A stretch of 64,000 nt of DNA from the NCBI RefSeq assembly GCF_014696435.1, contig NZ_JACJQG010000036.1, positions 1-64,000 on the forward strand. The letters are read 5' to 3'. The position numbers and the translations under genes are program-made. The notes below the pieces were generated by a model. It saw nothing but the letters and a program-made list of their open reading frames with translations, had not been told where the DNA came from and searched no databases. Position 1 is the stretch's first letter. Each line of letters begins with the position of its first letter. This DNA comes from Calothrix anomala FACHB-343 (GTDB taxonomy: Bacteria > Cyanobacteriota > Cyanobacteriia > Cyanobacteriales > Nostocaceae). Positions 37,145 through 55,074 of the stretch are shown here, in pieces.

Positions 37145-37357
37145 TCTCGTTGGCCTCGCGCGCTCACTTGATAGATTTTAGCTGAATAGGCAGTAAGCGC
37201 TGCAATCTAACTGTAATGTAATACCTTTGCTCAATTATAATGAAGGCGATTGTAGTTTTTCTGAGTTGGATTTGATGATAATCCACCAGGAAGGTACTGC
37301 CCCTTCTGTATCTGTGTTATCAGCACAGCGCCTCACTTTTCGGCTTCTGGTGGAAGG

Positions 37358-37440
37358 CGGAAGATGGAGGAATCGAACCCCTAGGTGTTACCCTACCCCG
37401 GTTTTCAAGACCGGTTGCCGACCATTTAGCGGCATCTTCC
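37358..37440 (-). tRNA. trnS-TGA: tRNA-Ser(TGA)
   Basis: Anticodon loop CTTGAAA closed by CCGGT/ACCGG; long variable arm; acceptor GGAAGAT/ATCTTCC; discriminator G; no encoded CCA. It is the last tRNA of the array in the direction of transcription. Confidence 0.93.
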
Positions 37441-37446
37441 ATTTAG

Positions 37447-37521
37447 GGTATCTGACGGGGCTTGAACCCGTTATGACTGGTTCCACAAACCAGCGCCGCG
37501 ACCGCTTTGGCTTCAGATACC
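37447..37521 (-). tRNA. trnH-GTG: tRNA-His(GTG)
   Basis: Anticodon loop TTGTGGA; acceptor GTATCTG/CAGATAC with an encoded extra G at -1 facing discriminator C, the tRNA-His hallmark. Confidence 0.93.
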
Positions 37522-37525
37522 ACAG

Positions 37526-37599
37526 TGGAATCAAGGGGATTTGAACCCCTAACCTTCCGCTTGCAAGGCGGATGCTCTAGCCAGTTGAGCTATGACCCC
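37526..37599 (-). tRNA. trnA-TGC: tRNA-Ala(TGC)
   Basis: Anticodon loop CTTGCAA on a TCCGC/GCGGA stem; acceptor GGGGTCA pairs with TGATTCC through two G-T pairs. Confidence 0.92.
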
Positions 37600-37605
37600 A
37601 TACAG

Positions 37606-37703
37606 CAGGAGTGGTAGGACTCGTAGACGCGGAGCGGCTTCCCGCAGGGTACCTACATCGCTCGATTTAGAAGATCGATGCCCATCCATTAGGCGACACT
37701 CCC
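37606..37703 (-). tRNA. trnR-TCT: tRNA-Arg(TCT) with T-loop insertion
   Basis: Anticodon loop CTTCTAA on TCGAT/ATCGA; acceptor GGGAGTG/CACTCCT. The gene is 98 nt. In the T loop, between T54 and C56, 28 nt (37624-37651, TAGAC..GGGTA on the plus strand) stand where two bases are expected. Without them it is a normal 72-nt tRNA. Confidence 0.85.
37624..37651 (-). repeat. Small dispersed repeat inside the tRNA-Arg T loop
   Basis: A 28-nt unit that can form two short hairpins (CCC-TGC-GGG and CGC-TCC-GCG in tRNA sense). Same position and ends as at 37731-37755 and 38724-38751; a free copy is at 55026-55053. Confidence 0.85.
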
Positions 37704-37712
37704 ATGAATTAG

Positions 37713-37808
37713 TAGCCCTGACAGGATTTGTAGACACGGAGCATAAGGCAGGGTACCTGCGACTTCCTCTTTGTCAGAGAAGCACTCTCCCCACTGAGCT
37801 ACAGGGCT
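37713..37808 (-). tRNA. trnV-GAC: tRNA-Val(GAC) with T-loop insertion
   Basis: Anticodon loop CTGACAA; acceptor AGCCCTG/CAGGGCT; discriminator A. The 96-nt gene has a 25-nt insert (37731-37755) at the T-loop position where two bases are expected. Confidence 0.85.
37731..37755 (-). repeat. Small dispersed repeat inside the tRNA-Val T loop
   Basis: A 25-nt, partly deleted version of the TAGAC..GGGTA unit with the same boundaries as in tRNA-Arg and tRNA-Gln. Confidence 0.8.
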
Positions 37809-37813
37809 ACGAG

Positions 37814-37884
37814 AGCGGACGACGAGATTTGAACTCGTATCTGAAGCTTGGCATACTTCGGTGTTGCCCTTACACCACATCCGC
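37814..37884 (-). tRNA. trnG-GCC: tRNA-Gly(GCC)
   Basis: Anticodon loop ATGCCAA; acceptor GCGGATG/CGTCCGC; discriminator T as usual for Gly. Confidence 0.92.
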
Positions 37885-37892
37885 GTTATTGG

Positions 37893-37963
37893 AGCGATCG
37901 CCGAGAATCGAACTCGTACCGTGAGTTTGGAAGACTCTGATGCTACCTTTACAGTGCGATCGC
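37893..37963 (-). tRNA. trnG-TCC: tRNA-Gly(TCC)
   Basis: Anticodon loop CTTCCAA; discriminator T. Both acceptor strands are HIP1 octamers (GCGATCGC), so each strand is itself palindromic. The outermost anticodon-stem pair is A-A. Confidence 0.88.
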
Positions 37964-37970
37964 ATTCTGG

Positions 37971-38044
37971 AGCTGGTGACAGGAATTGAACCTGCAACCT
38001 ACTGATTACAAATCAGTTGCTCTGCCAGATTGAGCTACACCAGC
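37971..38044 (-). tRNA. trnT-TGT: tRNA-Thr(TGT)
   Basis: Anticodon loop TTTGTAA on ACTGA/TCAGT; acceptor GCTGGTG/CACCAGC. Confidence 0.93.
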
Positions 38045-38069
38045 ATTTCTGGATCTGAAAGTAGAAATT

Positions 38070-38093
38070 GTAGTCGCCCAAAAGAGCGACTAC
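38070..38093 (-). other. Intergenic hairpin inside the tRNA array
   Basis: GTAGTCGC and GCGACTAC (8 bp, exact) flank an 8-nt loop in the longest ordinary spacer of the array (66 nt). It may guide processing; a similar 8-bp hairpin (TTCTGCTT/AAGCAGAA) lies at 38603-38622. Confidence 0.5.
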
Positions 38094-38110
38094 CCGCTCC
38101 ATCTCAGCCA

Positions 38111-38184
38111 TACCCCTGACTGGATTTGAACCAGCATCTTCCAAATTTTAAGTTTGGCACCTCTTCCAATTGGGTTACAGGGGC
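38111..38184 (-). tRNA. trnL-TAA: tRNA-Leu(TAA), short variable arm
   Basis: Anticodon loop CTTAAAA on CCAAA/TTTGG; acceptor GCCCCTG/CAGGGGT. The variable region is only 5 nt (AAGAT), unlike normal class II leucine tRNAs, and there is no group I intron. Confidence 0.85.
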
Positions 38185-38190
38185 ATAATT

Positions 38191-38265
38191 TGGTGGGTCG
38201 CCCAGGGGTTGAACCTGGATAAGTCTACTTAAAAGGTAGCTGCATATCCGCTCTGCCAACGACCC
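38191..38265 (-). tRNA. trnK-TTT: tRNA-Lys(TTT)
   Basis: Anticodon loop CTTTTAA; acceptor GGGTCGT/GCGACCC; CCA encoded. Confidence 0.92.
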
Positions 38266-38269
38266 AATT

Positions 38270-38350
38270 TGGTACTCCCGACAGGATTTGAACCTGTAAC
38301 AAGAAACTCAGCGCTCAACTGAGTGCGTCTACCTATTCCGCCACGGGAGC
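38270..38350 (-). tRNA. trnL-GAG: tRNA-Leu(GAG), short variable arm
   Basis: Anticodon loop TTGAGCG on CTCAG/CTGAG; acceptor GCTCCCG/CGGGAGT; CCA encoded. Variable region about 9 nt without a stem. Confidence 0.88.
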
Positions 38351-38355
38351 ATCAG

Positions 38356-38429
38356 TACCCCTGACAGGAGTCGAACCTGCAAAACACTCGGTCTAAACGA
38401 GCGACGGTTTCCAATTACGTCACAGGGGC
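38356..38429 (-). tRNA. trnL-TAG: tRNA-Leu(TAG), short variable arm
   Basis: Anticodon loop TTTAGAC on GCTCG/CGAGT; acceptor GCCCCTG/CAGGGGT, identical to that of Leu(TAA). Variable region 5 nt. Confidence 0.85.
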
Positions 38430-38432
38430 AAA

Positions 38433-38509
38433 TGGTCGGGATGGTAGGATTTGAACCTACGACTCCTTGTCCCCAAAACAAGGCTTCTAGACCACTGAAT
38501 TACATCCCG
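38433..38509 (-). tRNA. trnP-TGG: tRNA-Pro(TGG)
   Basis: Anticodon loop TTTGGGG on CTTGT/ACAAG; acceptor CGGGATG/CATCCCG; CCA encoded. Confidence 0.93.
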
Positions 38510-38514
38510 ATATC

Positions 38515-38595
38515 TGGTACTCCTGACGGGAGTTGAACCCGTACAAAATAGACTGTTTTTGAGACAGCCGCCTCTTCCAATTGGGCTACAGGAGC
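38515..38595 (-). tRNA. trnL-CAA: tRNA-Leu(CAA), short variable arm
   Basis: Anticodon loop CTCAAAA on GCTGT/ACAGT; acceptor GCTCCTG/CAGGAGT; CCA encoded. Variable region about 9 nt without a stem. Confidence 0.87.
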
Positions 38596-38622
38596 ATAAT
38601 TTTTCTGCTTTGATAAGCAGAA

Positions 38623-38697
38623 CTGGGAAGGCAGGAATCGAACCCGCGAGATCCTGAGCCAAAATCAGGTGGCTTTGCCAACGTCGCCTACTTCCCA
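38623..38697 (-). tRNA. trnQ-TTG: tRNA-Gln(TTG)
   Basis: Anticodon loop TTTTGGC on CCTGA/TCAGG; acceptor TGGGAAG/CTTCCCA; discriminator G. Confidence 0.92.
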
Positions 38698-38705
38698 ATA
38701 ATTGG

Positions 38706-38805
38706 TTGCCGAGGTTGGGGTCGTAGACACGAAGTGGCTTCCCGAAGGGTACCAACTTCTCTGTGATTCAGAGTCACAGCGACTTTCCAAGTCGTCCACT
38801 CGGCA
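38706..38805 (-). tRNA. trnQ-CTG: tRNA-Gln(CTG) with T-loop insertion
   Basis: Anticodon loop CTCTGAA on TGTGA/TCACA; acceptor TGCCGAG/CTCGGCA; discriminator A, unusual for Gln. The 100-nt gene carries a 28-nt insert (38724-38751) in the T loop at the same point as Arg(TCT) and Val(GAC). Its body resembles Glu(CTC) of the same array. Confidence 0.8.
38724..38751 (-). repeat. Small dispersed repeat inside the tRNA-Gln T loop
   Basis: 28 nt, TAGAC..GGGTA. Relative to the copy in tRNA-Arg it has a paired change in the second hairpin (CGC/GCG to CAC/GTG), so pairing is kept. Confidence 0.83.
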
Positions 38806-38810
38806 ATGAA

Positions 38811-38885
<75 letters not shown>

Positions 38886-38894
38886 ATGTGCCAG

Positions 38895-38968
38895 TCCCCC
38901 AGATCCGGATTGAACGGATGACCTCCTGTTCTTCAAACAGGCGCTACTACCAACTGAGCTACCAGGGG
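38895..38968 (-). tRNA. trnF-GAA: tRNA-Phe(GAA)
   Basis: Anticodon loop TTGAAGA on CCTGT/ACAGG; acceptor CCCCTGG/CTGGGGG with G-T pairs. Confidence 0.92.
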
Positions 38969-38974
38969 ATAAGG

Positions 38975-39048
38975 CGAGAACGGAGGGACTTGAACCCCCA
39001 ACCTTCAGGTTCGTAATCTGAGATGCAATCCAGTTACACCACGTTCTC
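38975..39048 (-). tRNA. trnR-ACG: tRNA-Arg(ACG)
   Basis: Anticodon loop TTACGAA; acceptor GAGAACG/CGTTCTC; discriminator G. The innermost anticodon-stem pair is A-C. Confidence 0.9.
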
Positions 39049-39054
39049 ATCAGG

Positions 39055-39139
39055 CGGAGAGAGAGGGAGTTGAACCCACAGTGGACTTACATCCACGACT
39101 GTTTAGCAAACAGCTTGCCCTGCCGATAGCAATCTCTCC
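39055..39139 (-). tRNA. trnS-GCT: tRNA-Ser(GCT)
   Basis: Anticodon loop TTGCTAA; long class II variable arm; acceptor GGAGAGA/TCTCTCC. One T-stem mismatch (T-T). Confidence 0.9.
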
Positions 39140-39143
39140 ATAA

Positions 39144-39228
39144 TGGGTCGGGTAGGATTTGAACCTACGAGGCTCATAGGCATCCGTTTTACAGACGGCT
39201 TCCTTCAACCGGACTTGGATACCGACCC
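39144..39228 (-). tRNA. trnY-GTA: tRNA-Tyr(GTA)
   Basis: Anticodon loop CTGTAAA; long variable arm; acceptor GGGTCGG/CCGACCC. Confidence 0.93.
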
Positions 39229-39235
39229 ATCAATT

Positions 39236-39312
39236 TGGTAGTGCAGACGGGACTCGAACCCGCTAATTACACGCTTGAAAGACGTGCCGCTCGGCCACTT
39301 CGCTTCTGCACC
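39236..39312 (-). tRNA. trnE-TTC: tRNA-Glu(TTC)
   Basis: Anticodon loop CTTTCAA on CACGT/GCGTG; acceptor GGTGCAG/CTGCACT; CCA encoded. The D stem pairs poorly (about 2 bp), so function is less certain. Confidence 0.8.
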
Positions 39313-39370
39313 AAGAGTGAAATTTCTACCACATGCAAGTTTGAGAAGCTGTTTTTTCAGCCCCCTGGTT

Positions 39371-39437
39371 TGGTGGAGGCTGTAGGATTTGAACCTACTC
39401 TGATTGAGATAATCAGATGACCAGTTTGTAAGCTTCT
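39371..39437 (-). pseudogene. Degenerate tRNA (intact 3' half, ruined 5' half)
   Basis: A normal T arm (GTAGG/CCTAC), acceptor 3' strand AGCCTCC, discriminator A and CCA are present. The 5' acceptor strand (AGAAGCT) has mismatches and no D arm can be formed. The anticodon loop reads TATCTCA with A at position 33. Imperfect inverted repeats TTCTACCAC/GTGGTAGAA (about 39325 and 39450) flank it. Confidence 0.6.
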
Positions 39438-39459
39438 GATGTTGGGGCACGTGGTAGAA

Positions 39460-39530
39460 CGCACAGACAAGGATTTGAACCCTGACCAAAGGTTTTGGAG
39501 ACCCTGGTGCTGCCGTTACACCATCTGTGC
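39460..39530 (-). tRNA. trnW-CCA: tRNA-Trp(CCA)
   Basis: Anticodon loop CTCCAAA on AGGGT/ACCTT; acceptor GCACAGA/TCTGTGC; discriminator G. Confidence 0.92.
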
Positions 39531-39532
39531 AT

Positions 39533-39607
39533 TGGTCGCAGTGGTGGGAATTGAACCCACATATCCTCGATTATGAGCCGAGTACCTTGCCGTTAGGTTA
39601 CACTGCA
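39533..39607 (-). tRNA. trnM-CAT: tRNA-Met(CAT) (elongator, or Ile reading ATA)
   Basis: Anticodon loop CTCATAA on CTCGG/TCGAG; acceptor TGCAGTG/CACTGCG; CCA encoded. It lacks initiator features. CAT could also be an Ile tRNA after lysidine modification; sequence alone does not decide. Confidence 0.88.
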
Positions 39608-39612
39608 ACGTT

Positions 39613-39686
39613 TGGAGTCCAGGGCGAGAATTGAACTCGCACAGTCGGTTTTGCAGACCAATACCCTACCATTAGGCGACCTGGAC
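39613..39686 (-). tRNA. trnC-GCA: tRNA-Cys(GCA)
   Basis: Anticodon loop CTGCAAA; acceptor GTCCAGG/CCTGGAC; discriminator T as expected; CCA encoded. Confidence 0.93.
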
Positions 39687-39693
39687 ATTTTTG

Positions 39694-39767
39694 AAGCCTC
39701 GACGGGAGTTGCACCCGCTTCTCTCTGACTGAGAATCAGAGCGACTTTTCTATTCGTCCACAAGGCT
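39694..39767 (-). tRNA. trnE-CTC: tRNA-Glu(CTC), aberrant T and D loops
   Basis: Anticodon loop TTCTCAG on TCTGA/TCAGA; acceptor AGCCTTG/CGAGGCT. The T loop is TGCAACT (G at position 55 instead of T) and the D loop lacks GG, so the elbow contact is lost. It is paralogous to Gln(CTG). Confidence 0.75.
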
Positions 39768-39773
39768 ACAAGG

Positions 39774-39848
39774 CGGGGATGACGAGACTTGAACTCGCGA
39801 CTTCCTATTCGACAGATAGGCACTCTTAACCGACTGAGTTACACCCCC
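39774..39848 (-). tRNA. trnD-GTC: tRNA-Asp(GTC)
   Basis: Anticodon loop CTGTCGA on CCTAT/ATAGG; acceptor GGGGGTG/CATCCCC; discriminator G. It is the first tRNA of the array. Confidence 0.93.
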
Positions 39849-54835: not shown

Positions 54836-55074
54836 AATAAGTATCTAAAGGCACAGCCAAAAACTTTTCAAACAACCTCTGAGCATCCCCCGCAGGTGTA
54901 TAGGCGAACCCGCCAGACATCAAGATTCCAGCAGCAAACCCTACGCTTCCCGGAGTCCGATTTAAACTAACTGCGGTGATTGATATCTTGCACCTACAGC
55001 CTATCAGGGTGAGGCTATACAAACATAGACGCGAAGCGGCTTCCCACAGGGTAGCCTGCGTAGGCAGGCTCATA
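54836..55074 (-). other. Open frame with possible gene fragment
   Basis: A minus-strand frame ends at 54837 with SVGFAAGILMSGGFAYTPAG. It overlaps a TAGAC..GGGTA dispersed repeat at 55026-55053. It has no recognised domain or ribosome site and is likely spurious or a relic. From 55075 to 55725 I see no gene; a GGGGCAT heptamer array lies at about 55572-55603. Confidence 0.3.
55026..55053. repeat. Free copy of the TAGAC..GGGTA small dispersed repeat
   Basis: 28 nt, differing at three positions from the unit in the tRNA-Arg T loop. It lies in non-coding DNA. Confidence 0.8.

Follow-up and report, generated by a model that had tools for sequence, protein, structure and literature searches.

Why should three transfer RNA (tRNA) genes of a single array each carry an extra sequence at the same point of the T loop, and can RNAs interrupted in this way still work? 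The question is raised by DNA of Calothrix anomala FACHB-343 (contig NZ_JACJQG010000036.1, positions 1-64,000), a stretch of 64,000 nucleotides (nt) referred to here as the window, whose minus strand corresponds to the tRNA sense and encodes an array of 27 tRNA genes. A first-pass annotation had proposed that the genes for tRNA-Arg(TCT), tRNA-Val(GAC) and tRNA-Gln(CTG) hold copies of one dispersed repeat, and this is borne out by comparison within the genome and with relatives. The explanation that we regard as likely is that mobile repeats resembling the small dispersed repeats (SDRs) of Nostoc enter DNA at T^CR (^, junction; R, purine), are tolerated in the supernumerary tRNAs of such arrays, and most likely inactivate the copies that they enter. 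The relevant features are:

37356..39848, minus strand: long tRNA gene array of about 2.5 kb, 27 tRNA genes on one strand (23 from ARAGORN, 1 from Rfam, 3 with inserts)
37607..37703, minus strand: tRNA-Arg(TCT) gene with a T loop of 33 nt (sequence)
37624..37650, minus strand: 27-nt element replacing T55 of tRNA-Arg(TCT) (sequence comparison)
37714..37808, minus strand: tRNA-Val(GAC) gene with a T loop of 30 nt (sequence, Rfam)
37731..37754, minus strand: 24-nt decayed element replacing T55 of tRNA-Val(GAC) (sequence comparison)
38707..38805, minus strand: tRNA-Gln(CTG) gene with a T loop of 33 nt (sequence)
38724..38750, minus strand: 27-nt element, second hairpin CAC/GTG, replacing T55 of tRNA-Gln(CTG) (sequence comparison)
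55026..55052, minus strand: free copy of the 27-nt element, away from any tRNA gene found; the sole free copy in the window (pattern search)
37893-37963, minus strand: tRNA gene reported by Rfam and absent from the 23 of ARAGORN

A dispersed repeat with an exact empty site

In tRNA sense, the junction in all three genes reads ...GGT-ACCC...TCTA-CRA..., such that T54, C56, R57 and A58 are retained and T55 alone is exchanged for a unit of 27, 24 or 27 nt (T to A...A). Two bases (TT) had at first been thought displaced, which is incorrect since T54 stays. The proposed unit length of 25-28 nt holds for Arg and Gln and fails for Val, whose insert has decayed, having lost its first hairpin and 3 nt of length.

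In the FACHB-343 genome, the 27-mer is found in 49 copies at no more than 2 mismatches, 33 of them with none, while the reversed pattern has no copy. It combines a length within the range of about 21-27 nt with many dispersed copies, and other subfamilies span 20-27 nt. Free copies outside tRNA genes, as the first-pass annotation had noted, include the one in the window and others among the 49. Flanks were read for 30 of these 49 copies (one being the Arg insert), with T on the 5′ side in 30/30 and C on the 3′ side in 26/30; 19 of the 30 lie in the palindromic repeat GTTGGGTT^CGTTCCTCAACCCAAC (with small variation), and two in tandem heptamers TAATTCG. One copy (L259, G000:C58:19070) sits in a T-arm-like hairpin, GCGGGT^CAATCCCCGC, with no tRNA 5′ half seen in the preceding bases.

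The second hairpins of the Arg and Gln inserts, CGC/GCG and CAC/GTG, had suggested that copies change in ways that keep pairing. The difference is real, but the CAC/GTG form is present letter for letter as free copies at C61:68596 and C68:42651 of the same genome, and therefore reflects a pre-existing subfamily, not a compensatory change made within the tRNA; the first hairpin of the Val copy is lost. Compensatory evolution of the inserts within tRNAs was accordingly rejected.

An exact empty site occurs in Tolypothrix sp. PCC 7712 (G014), whose Gln(CTG) gene has T55 and is identical to the window gene at all other positions. Seven same-genus genomes (G012, G013, G014, G015, G017, G018, G019) have no insert in the Gln(CTG) gene of their main array, and the insert of the window recurs in Tolypothrix sp. 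FACHB-123 (L194). The Arg(TCT) gene has an element in G013 too and none in G014, G015, G017, G018 and G019, whereas Val(GAC) holds 27-nt copies in G013, G014 and G017 and none in G019 (G016, which gave only a weak match in the array search, was left out of this gene comparison). Among the relatives surveyed below, 48 of 108 T-loop-inserted genes are 0-1 position away (T54/T55 excluded) from an intact gene of another genome. Empty sites and copy number point to mobility of the elements, which most likely form a superfamily of very small non-autonomous mobile repeats like the Nostoc SDRs.

Annotation tools overlook such genes. On the window, ARAGORN reported none of the three, and Rfam at gathering score returned Val only, at 96 nt; all Rfam hits at that score were tRNAs, with no group I intron among them. 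With 27 genes in 2.5 kb and 46 more tRNA genes elsewhere in the genome, the locus has the more than 20 tandem genes, besides a housekeeping set, of a long tRNA array. Its other members include two tRNAs with the Leu anticodons TAA and TAG (38110-38185 and 38355-38429) whose amino acid identity is doubtful because their variable loop measures only 5 nt, without a long variable arm. Between tRNA-Glu(TTC) and tRNA-Trp, a tRNA-like remnant with an intact T arm (39313-39458) is reported by neither program.

Recurrence and choice of insertion site

In order to see how widely such inserts occur, we used 80 array stretches from 68 genomes, hand-picked among the matches listed in an array search of 218 family genomes (some match was obtained in 215/218, frequently just single tRNAs). 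The three genes of the window stand outside the count of 108 T-loop inserts given below and its breakdown. A cloverleaf scanner that allows long T loops and requires a near-complete T stem recovered 1154 tRNAs whose T loop has 7 nt; in 78 more, scoring at least 22, the loop is longer, and the junction described above fits 75 of these 78; at least two of the three misfits resemble chimeras of neighbouring genes. Sequences read backward gave no score above 20. A second, position-neutral survey, in which every array segment still unexplained was aligned with 692 distinct intact tRNAs, yielded 159 tRNAs with an insert of at least 10 nt, 105 of them at T54/T55, while the same segments read reversed gave no insert match. 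With limits widened by one position the alignment count rises to 108 T-loop inserts across 24 anticodons, in 48 of the 80 stretches and 41 of the 68 genomes, with a maximum of 9 per stretch. These contain related copies, 111 insert rows collapsing to 96 distinct anticodon-insert pairs. T-loop inserts are thus not peculiar to FACHB-343 and recur among related cyanobacteria, and the search of other arrays called for by the first-pass annotation supports its claim of recurrent placement.

The inserts belong to several two-hairpin subfamilies of 20-27 nt. Some are nested: these T-loop inserts of 44-78 nt consist of an element whose loop has received a second one, again at this kind of junction. 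Among the 108 inserts, 77 have a standard length, and in these 27 of 445 expected hairpin pairs are broken, 21 of them in 4 inserts of another fold; with these 4 set aside, 6 of 421 pairs are broken in 73 inserts, a count that leaves out inserts that gained or lost bases.

A broader scan used one exact pattern, which captures only some subfamilies, in a collection with one genome per species for 84,980 species. It matched 102 stretches, every one with a cyanobacterial record title and with a range beyond Nostocales. The scanner found 93 T-loop inserts in 52 of these 102 stretches (92 distinct sequences, 34 common to the first set), including examples from Leptolyngbya sp. PCC 7375, Adonisia turfae, Stenomitos frigidus, Pantanalinema, Oculatella and Elainella. 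Of the 93, 89 lie within 700 bases of an ordinary tRNA; among the exceptions, three are at a Stenomitos contig end where no ordinary tRNA was found, and one is about 1.6 kb from the rest of a Calothrix brevissima array. Phages were considered as carriers and set aside, the T-loop pattern having 0 exact matches in the viral collection.

An assembly or sequencing artefact, which the first-pass annotation had named as a possible refutation, is exceedingly improbable. Many separate assemblies show this junction, occupied by different elements; some of them are large chromosomes that are closed or almost so, such as the 9.0-Mb chromosome of Tolypothrix sp. PCC 7712 (L034), and we found no point in favour of this reading and rejected it.

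What, then, directs the repeats to the T loop? In DNA the elements mostly enter T^CR, whichever the strand, inside tRNAs and outside them. Inserts at other points of array tRNAs also keep to T^C. They run in reverse in the Phe anticodon (whose GAA then reads TTC), at positions 37 and 43 of Arg(ACG) and at position 28 of Arg(TCT) (GAT^CGA), and in the sense direction in the Glu anticodon TTC. When all contexts other than T-loop ones were collapsed to 40, some of them tRNA sites and one nested, T preceded the junction in 34, C followed it in 34, and R stood at the second position after it in 38. In 80 stretches, reverse-orientation repeats split the anticodon of tRNA-Phe(GAA) in 11, leaving the remaining gene little or not altered; seven of these splits involve the same element (L039, L045, L064, L067 with one base different, L071, L076 and L081) and the others involve other elements (L059, L101, L103 and L105).

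TTCRA sites of tRNA genes lie most often in the T loop, and recognition of the tRNA therefore need not be invoked to explain the placement, though it may contribute: in the 692 distinct intact array tRNAs, 686 TTCRA sites lie in T loops and 126 elsewhere (84% in T loops), and for plain TTCR the figures are 686 and 411 (63%). The T-loop share of the observed inserts is 84% (96/114; P = 0.90 against TTCRA, a motif picked after the fact, and P = 5e-7 against TTCR), in a test with unequal units that sets 96 anticodon-insert pairs against 18 anticodon-position cases. The 30 other rows reduce to 21 distinct anticodon-insert pairs, about 12 of which are by eye true repeats outside the T loop, the rest being misplaced T-loop cases, chimeras or doubtful; one further such case in L037 was missed by the filter. 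Cleaning by eye raises the share to about 88%, and such corrections give a range of 84-88%. A slightly extended sequence motif suffices for T-loop placement, although the excess over TTCR may owe something to tolerance or structure as well. Placement in T loops is consequently recurrent, as first proposed, without the T loop having to be a targeted feature of the tRNA.

Targeting of the T loop at the RNA level was set aside, given that antisense inserts and inserts outside tRNAs share the T^CR junction. What the elements recognise could instead be a TTC-bearing hairpin loop of single-stranded DNA or RNA, and not a sequence as such; T arms, the elements' own hairpins and the loops of other repeats would then fall under one rule. 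The T arm, the own hairpin loop, the loop of the GTTGGGTT^C...CAACCC repeat and the anticodon loops are all hairpin loops, and T loops are hit more often than plain TTCR predicts. Stems around the site are, however, hardly enriched: stems of at least 5 bp surround 8/40 contexts (20%) against 14.8% of 16574 TTCR control sites, stems of at least 4 bp surround 15/40 (37.5%) against 33.2%, and some sites are located in stems or unpaired regions. With values for 40 contexts not clearly over the controls, general hairpin-loop targeting was not retained, and we consider it rather unlikely.

Function of the inserted tRNAs

The first-pass annotation had left it open whether the interrupted tRNAs are dead, trimmed or otherwise used, and of these the first is best supported, indirectly, by predicted folds and stem changes. 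Fold predictions were made for 76 scanner-found inserted genes (loops of 16-60 nt), a different set from the 108. A T stem appears in the predicted minimum-energy fold of 12/76 inserted RNAs and 814/1151 intact ones, and it is lacking as well from the predicted folds of the three window genes. Stem changes private to a gene, relative to the nearest intact gene of another genome, were counted for the alignment set, with a comparison set of 1535 insert-free genes (1141 intact to the scanner and 394 failing it). Under the lower divergence cap, private stem changes average 0.59 in the 95 inserted genes and 0.25 in the 1280 insert-free genes, and compensated double changes make up 0 of 56 private changes against 33 of 321. 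Under the higher cap, the corresponding values are 2/87 (105 inserted genes) and 143/563 (1381 insert-free genes). The stems of inserted tRNAs are not better kept than the hairpins of their inserts, with 58 of 2160 tRNA stem pairs broken against 6 of 421 hairpin pairs (the 73 standard inserts, decayed inserts being outside the count). Genes with no broken stem pair account for 77/108 inserted and 1290/1535 insert-free genes. Judged from these sequence patterns, redundant copies would most likely have been knocked out by recent insertion, after which selection on them relaxed.

Redundancy was assessed in 40 stretches of the FACHB-343 genome outside the array with ARAGORN and the insert-tolerant scanner. 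ARAGORN reported 46 tRNA genes, including Arg(TCT), Val(GAC) and Gln(TTG), so that other genes, asked for at first pass, exist for two of the three affected anticodons, while no second Gln(CTG) gene is among the 46. The scanner found 42 housekeeping tRNAs, all with 7-nt T loops and none with an insert. In a separate search, 150 of 605 candidates received a score and two of the three inserted genes went undetected; a housekeeping insert may have slipped past it and ARAGORN, and the scanner is the better test. The stretches also include a tRNA outside the array with anticodon CTA (L246, G000:C106, about 9108; called Pyl by ARAGORN), a possible amber suppressor.

From these observations, we propose that an element inserts into DNA at T^CR, often TT^CR, and leaves T-A...A-CR, with most subfamilies substituting for the second T. 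Almost all tRNA genes would offer one good site, T54-T55^C56-R57-A58. Hits in housekeeping tRNA genes would be lethal or strongly selected against, whereas long arrays, being supernumerary and (in Anabaena 7120) normally silent, could tolerate and accumulate inserts that most likely inactivate a tRNA copy by destroying its T arm. That function is lost, and that selection explains why inserts are nearly confined to arrays, are both inferences. If so, some stress-inducible array tRNAs have probably been knocked out strain by strain.

Several findings weigh against this proposal. No stem pair is broken in the 77 inserted genes just mentioned, relative to the nearest intact gene, and the pairing-preserving share of private changes is equal in the two sets (19/56 inserted, 116/321 insert-free). 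The base changes of the window's own Val gene relative to relatives preserve pairing although its insert has decayed. Absence of inserts from all 46 housekeeping genes has a chance of 0.04 at the array rate, a weak indication by itself from one genome, and the restriction to arrays therefore rests more on the species-wide scan. T loops are struck above the plain-TTCR expectation, and several sites outside the T loop read TTCAG. Finally, tRNA-Leu(CAA) genes of L105/L112, L116, L123, L160 and L178, and of L045, L047, L052 and L090, carry the same element subtypes across several haplotypes, and several of these haplotypes have identical or one-base-different insert-free counterparts. Either repeated gain at the exact site or exact loss would fit. 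Compensatory changes of the T stem on the two sides of the Leu(CAA) insert, taken at first as selection for function, were withdrawn as evidence in view of these identical or near-identical insert-free genes.

Two readings would keep the tRNAs in use. If the inserts were intron-like, their transcripts would be cut and rejoined, or trimmed, to functional tRNAs, which would account for the constant position and the mostly intact cloverleaves. The single junction, the hairpin form of the elements, the genes without broken pairs, the equal share of pairing-preserving changes, the maintained stems of the decayed Val gene and the presence of C56, A58 and T8 in 108/108 aligned inserted genes would all fit. 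Yet the same elements and junction occur outside tRNAs, in the elements' own hairpins and, reversed, across the Phe anticodon, and inserted genes have more private stem changes with few compensated ones. Excision between T54 and C56 would moreover not restore TTC because T55 is usually replaced: it would do so in subfamilies that keep both T's (L101), while in most subfamilies T55 is lost. We give this explanation a very slim chance. Alternatively, the elongated tRNA could work with its insert retained, or serve as another RNA such as a decoy, sponge or regulator. Repeats are carried by cyanobacterial RNase P RNA, and survival of T54, C56, R57 and A58 means that the T54-A58 and G19-C56 contacts may in principle still form. 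A T stem is absent, however, from the predicted folds of 64/76 inserted RNAs, and a conserved function looks unlikely because the inserts differ among close relatives and fall in many different tRNAs; this is again improbable. The chance is similarly small that some long-standing inserted genes, such as the Val gene common to several relatives, still give working tRNAs with the insert tolerated at position 55 or removed, in which case the elements would be minimal tRNA-borne intron-like mobile elements.

Relation to known introns, arrays and repeats

Repeats of this kind bear on earlier annotations. The catalytic core conserved in group I introns takes up some 200 nt or more, and the single and nested T-loop inserts measure only 20-78 nt. 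A 2017 survey (PMC5733544) lists 'group I introns' of 22-49 nt in cyanobacterial tRNA-Arg, -Gly and -Lys, among them a 22-nt case in the Arg(ACG) gene of Nostoc sp. PCC 7524. In L055, which we take as the plasmid array of that strain, the Arg(ACG) gene contains a 21-nt insert of SDR-like type close to position 43, and L047 and L099 share it. The reported intron is probably this insert, and at least one published cyanobacterial tRNA 'group I intron' is thus probably such a repeat; unlike group I introns, which these are too short to be, the inserts look like dispersed repeats at T^CR.

Introns in the T arm of tRNA genes occur in Cyanidioschyzon (PMC9602550). Archaeal examples also exist, and introns of these kinds are spliced out. 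The present inserts likewise add sequence to the T arm, but here T55 is replaced and the unit is dispersed elsewhere.

The array itself is probably comparable to the inducible trn operon that plasmid delta of Anabaena sp. PCC 7120 carries, 23 of whose 26 tRNAs are reportedly called functional. That operon is likewise a large one-strand array, with 26 tRNA genes besides the housekeeping set, and a term search of its description returned none of 'insertion', 'T-loop' and 'pseudogene' (PMC10272220).

With about a hundred insertions in a fixed frame whose empty sites are known or nearly so, arrays such as these bear on how elements of about 25 nt move. They yield a junction rule (T^CR, with the second T usually replaced) and a place to watch new events, and offer natural snapshots of how tiny elements choose a landing site. 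A literature search found no description of repeats in the T loops of bacterial tRNA genes, the three likeliest papers being outside its coverage.

Among mobile repeats, the Nostoc SDRs are the closest relatives in kind. In the account by Elhai et al. 2008 (Genome Res 18:1484), they are reportedly two-hairpin repeats of 21-27 nt, dispersed, self-nested, and located within minitransposons and heptamer repeats. The size, two hairpins, nesting and settings seen here agree with these features, as the first-pass annotation had suggested, and differ in that the recurrent site is the T loop of long-array tRNA genes, with many near-exact empty sites; that account is not known to describe a tRNA T-loop insertion. 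SDR5 stands between bases 3 and 4 of HIP1 (PMC4390886). On the complementary strand the site becomes GCGAT^CGC, which we interpret as the same T^CR junction. REPINs and REP elements are also very short, hairpin-forming, non-autonomous dispersed repeats, and REPINs are tied to RAYT transposases (PMC3116915).

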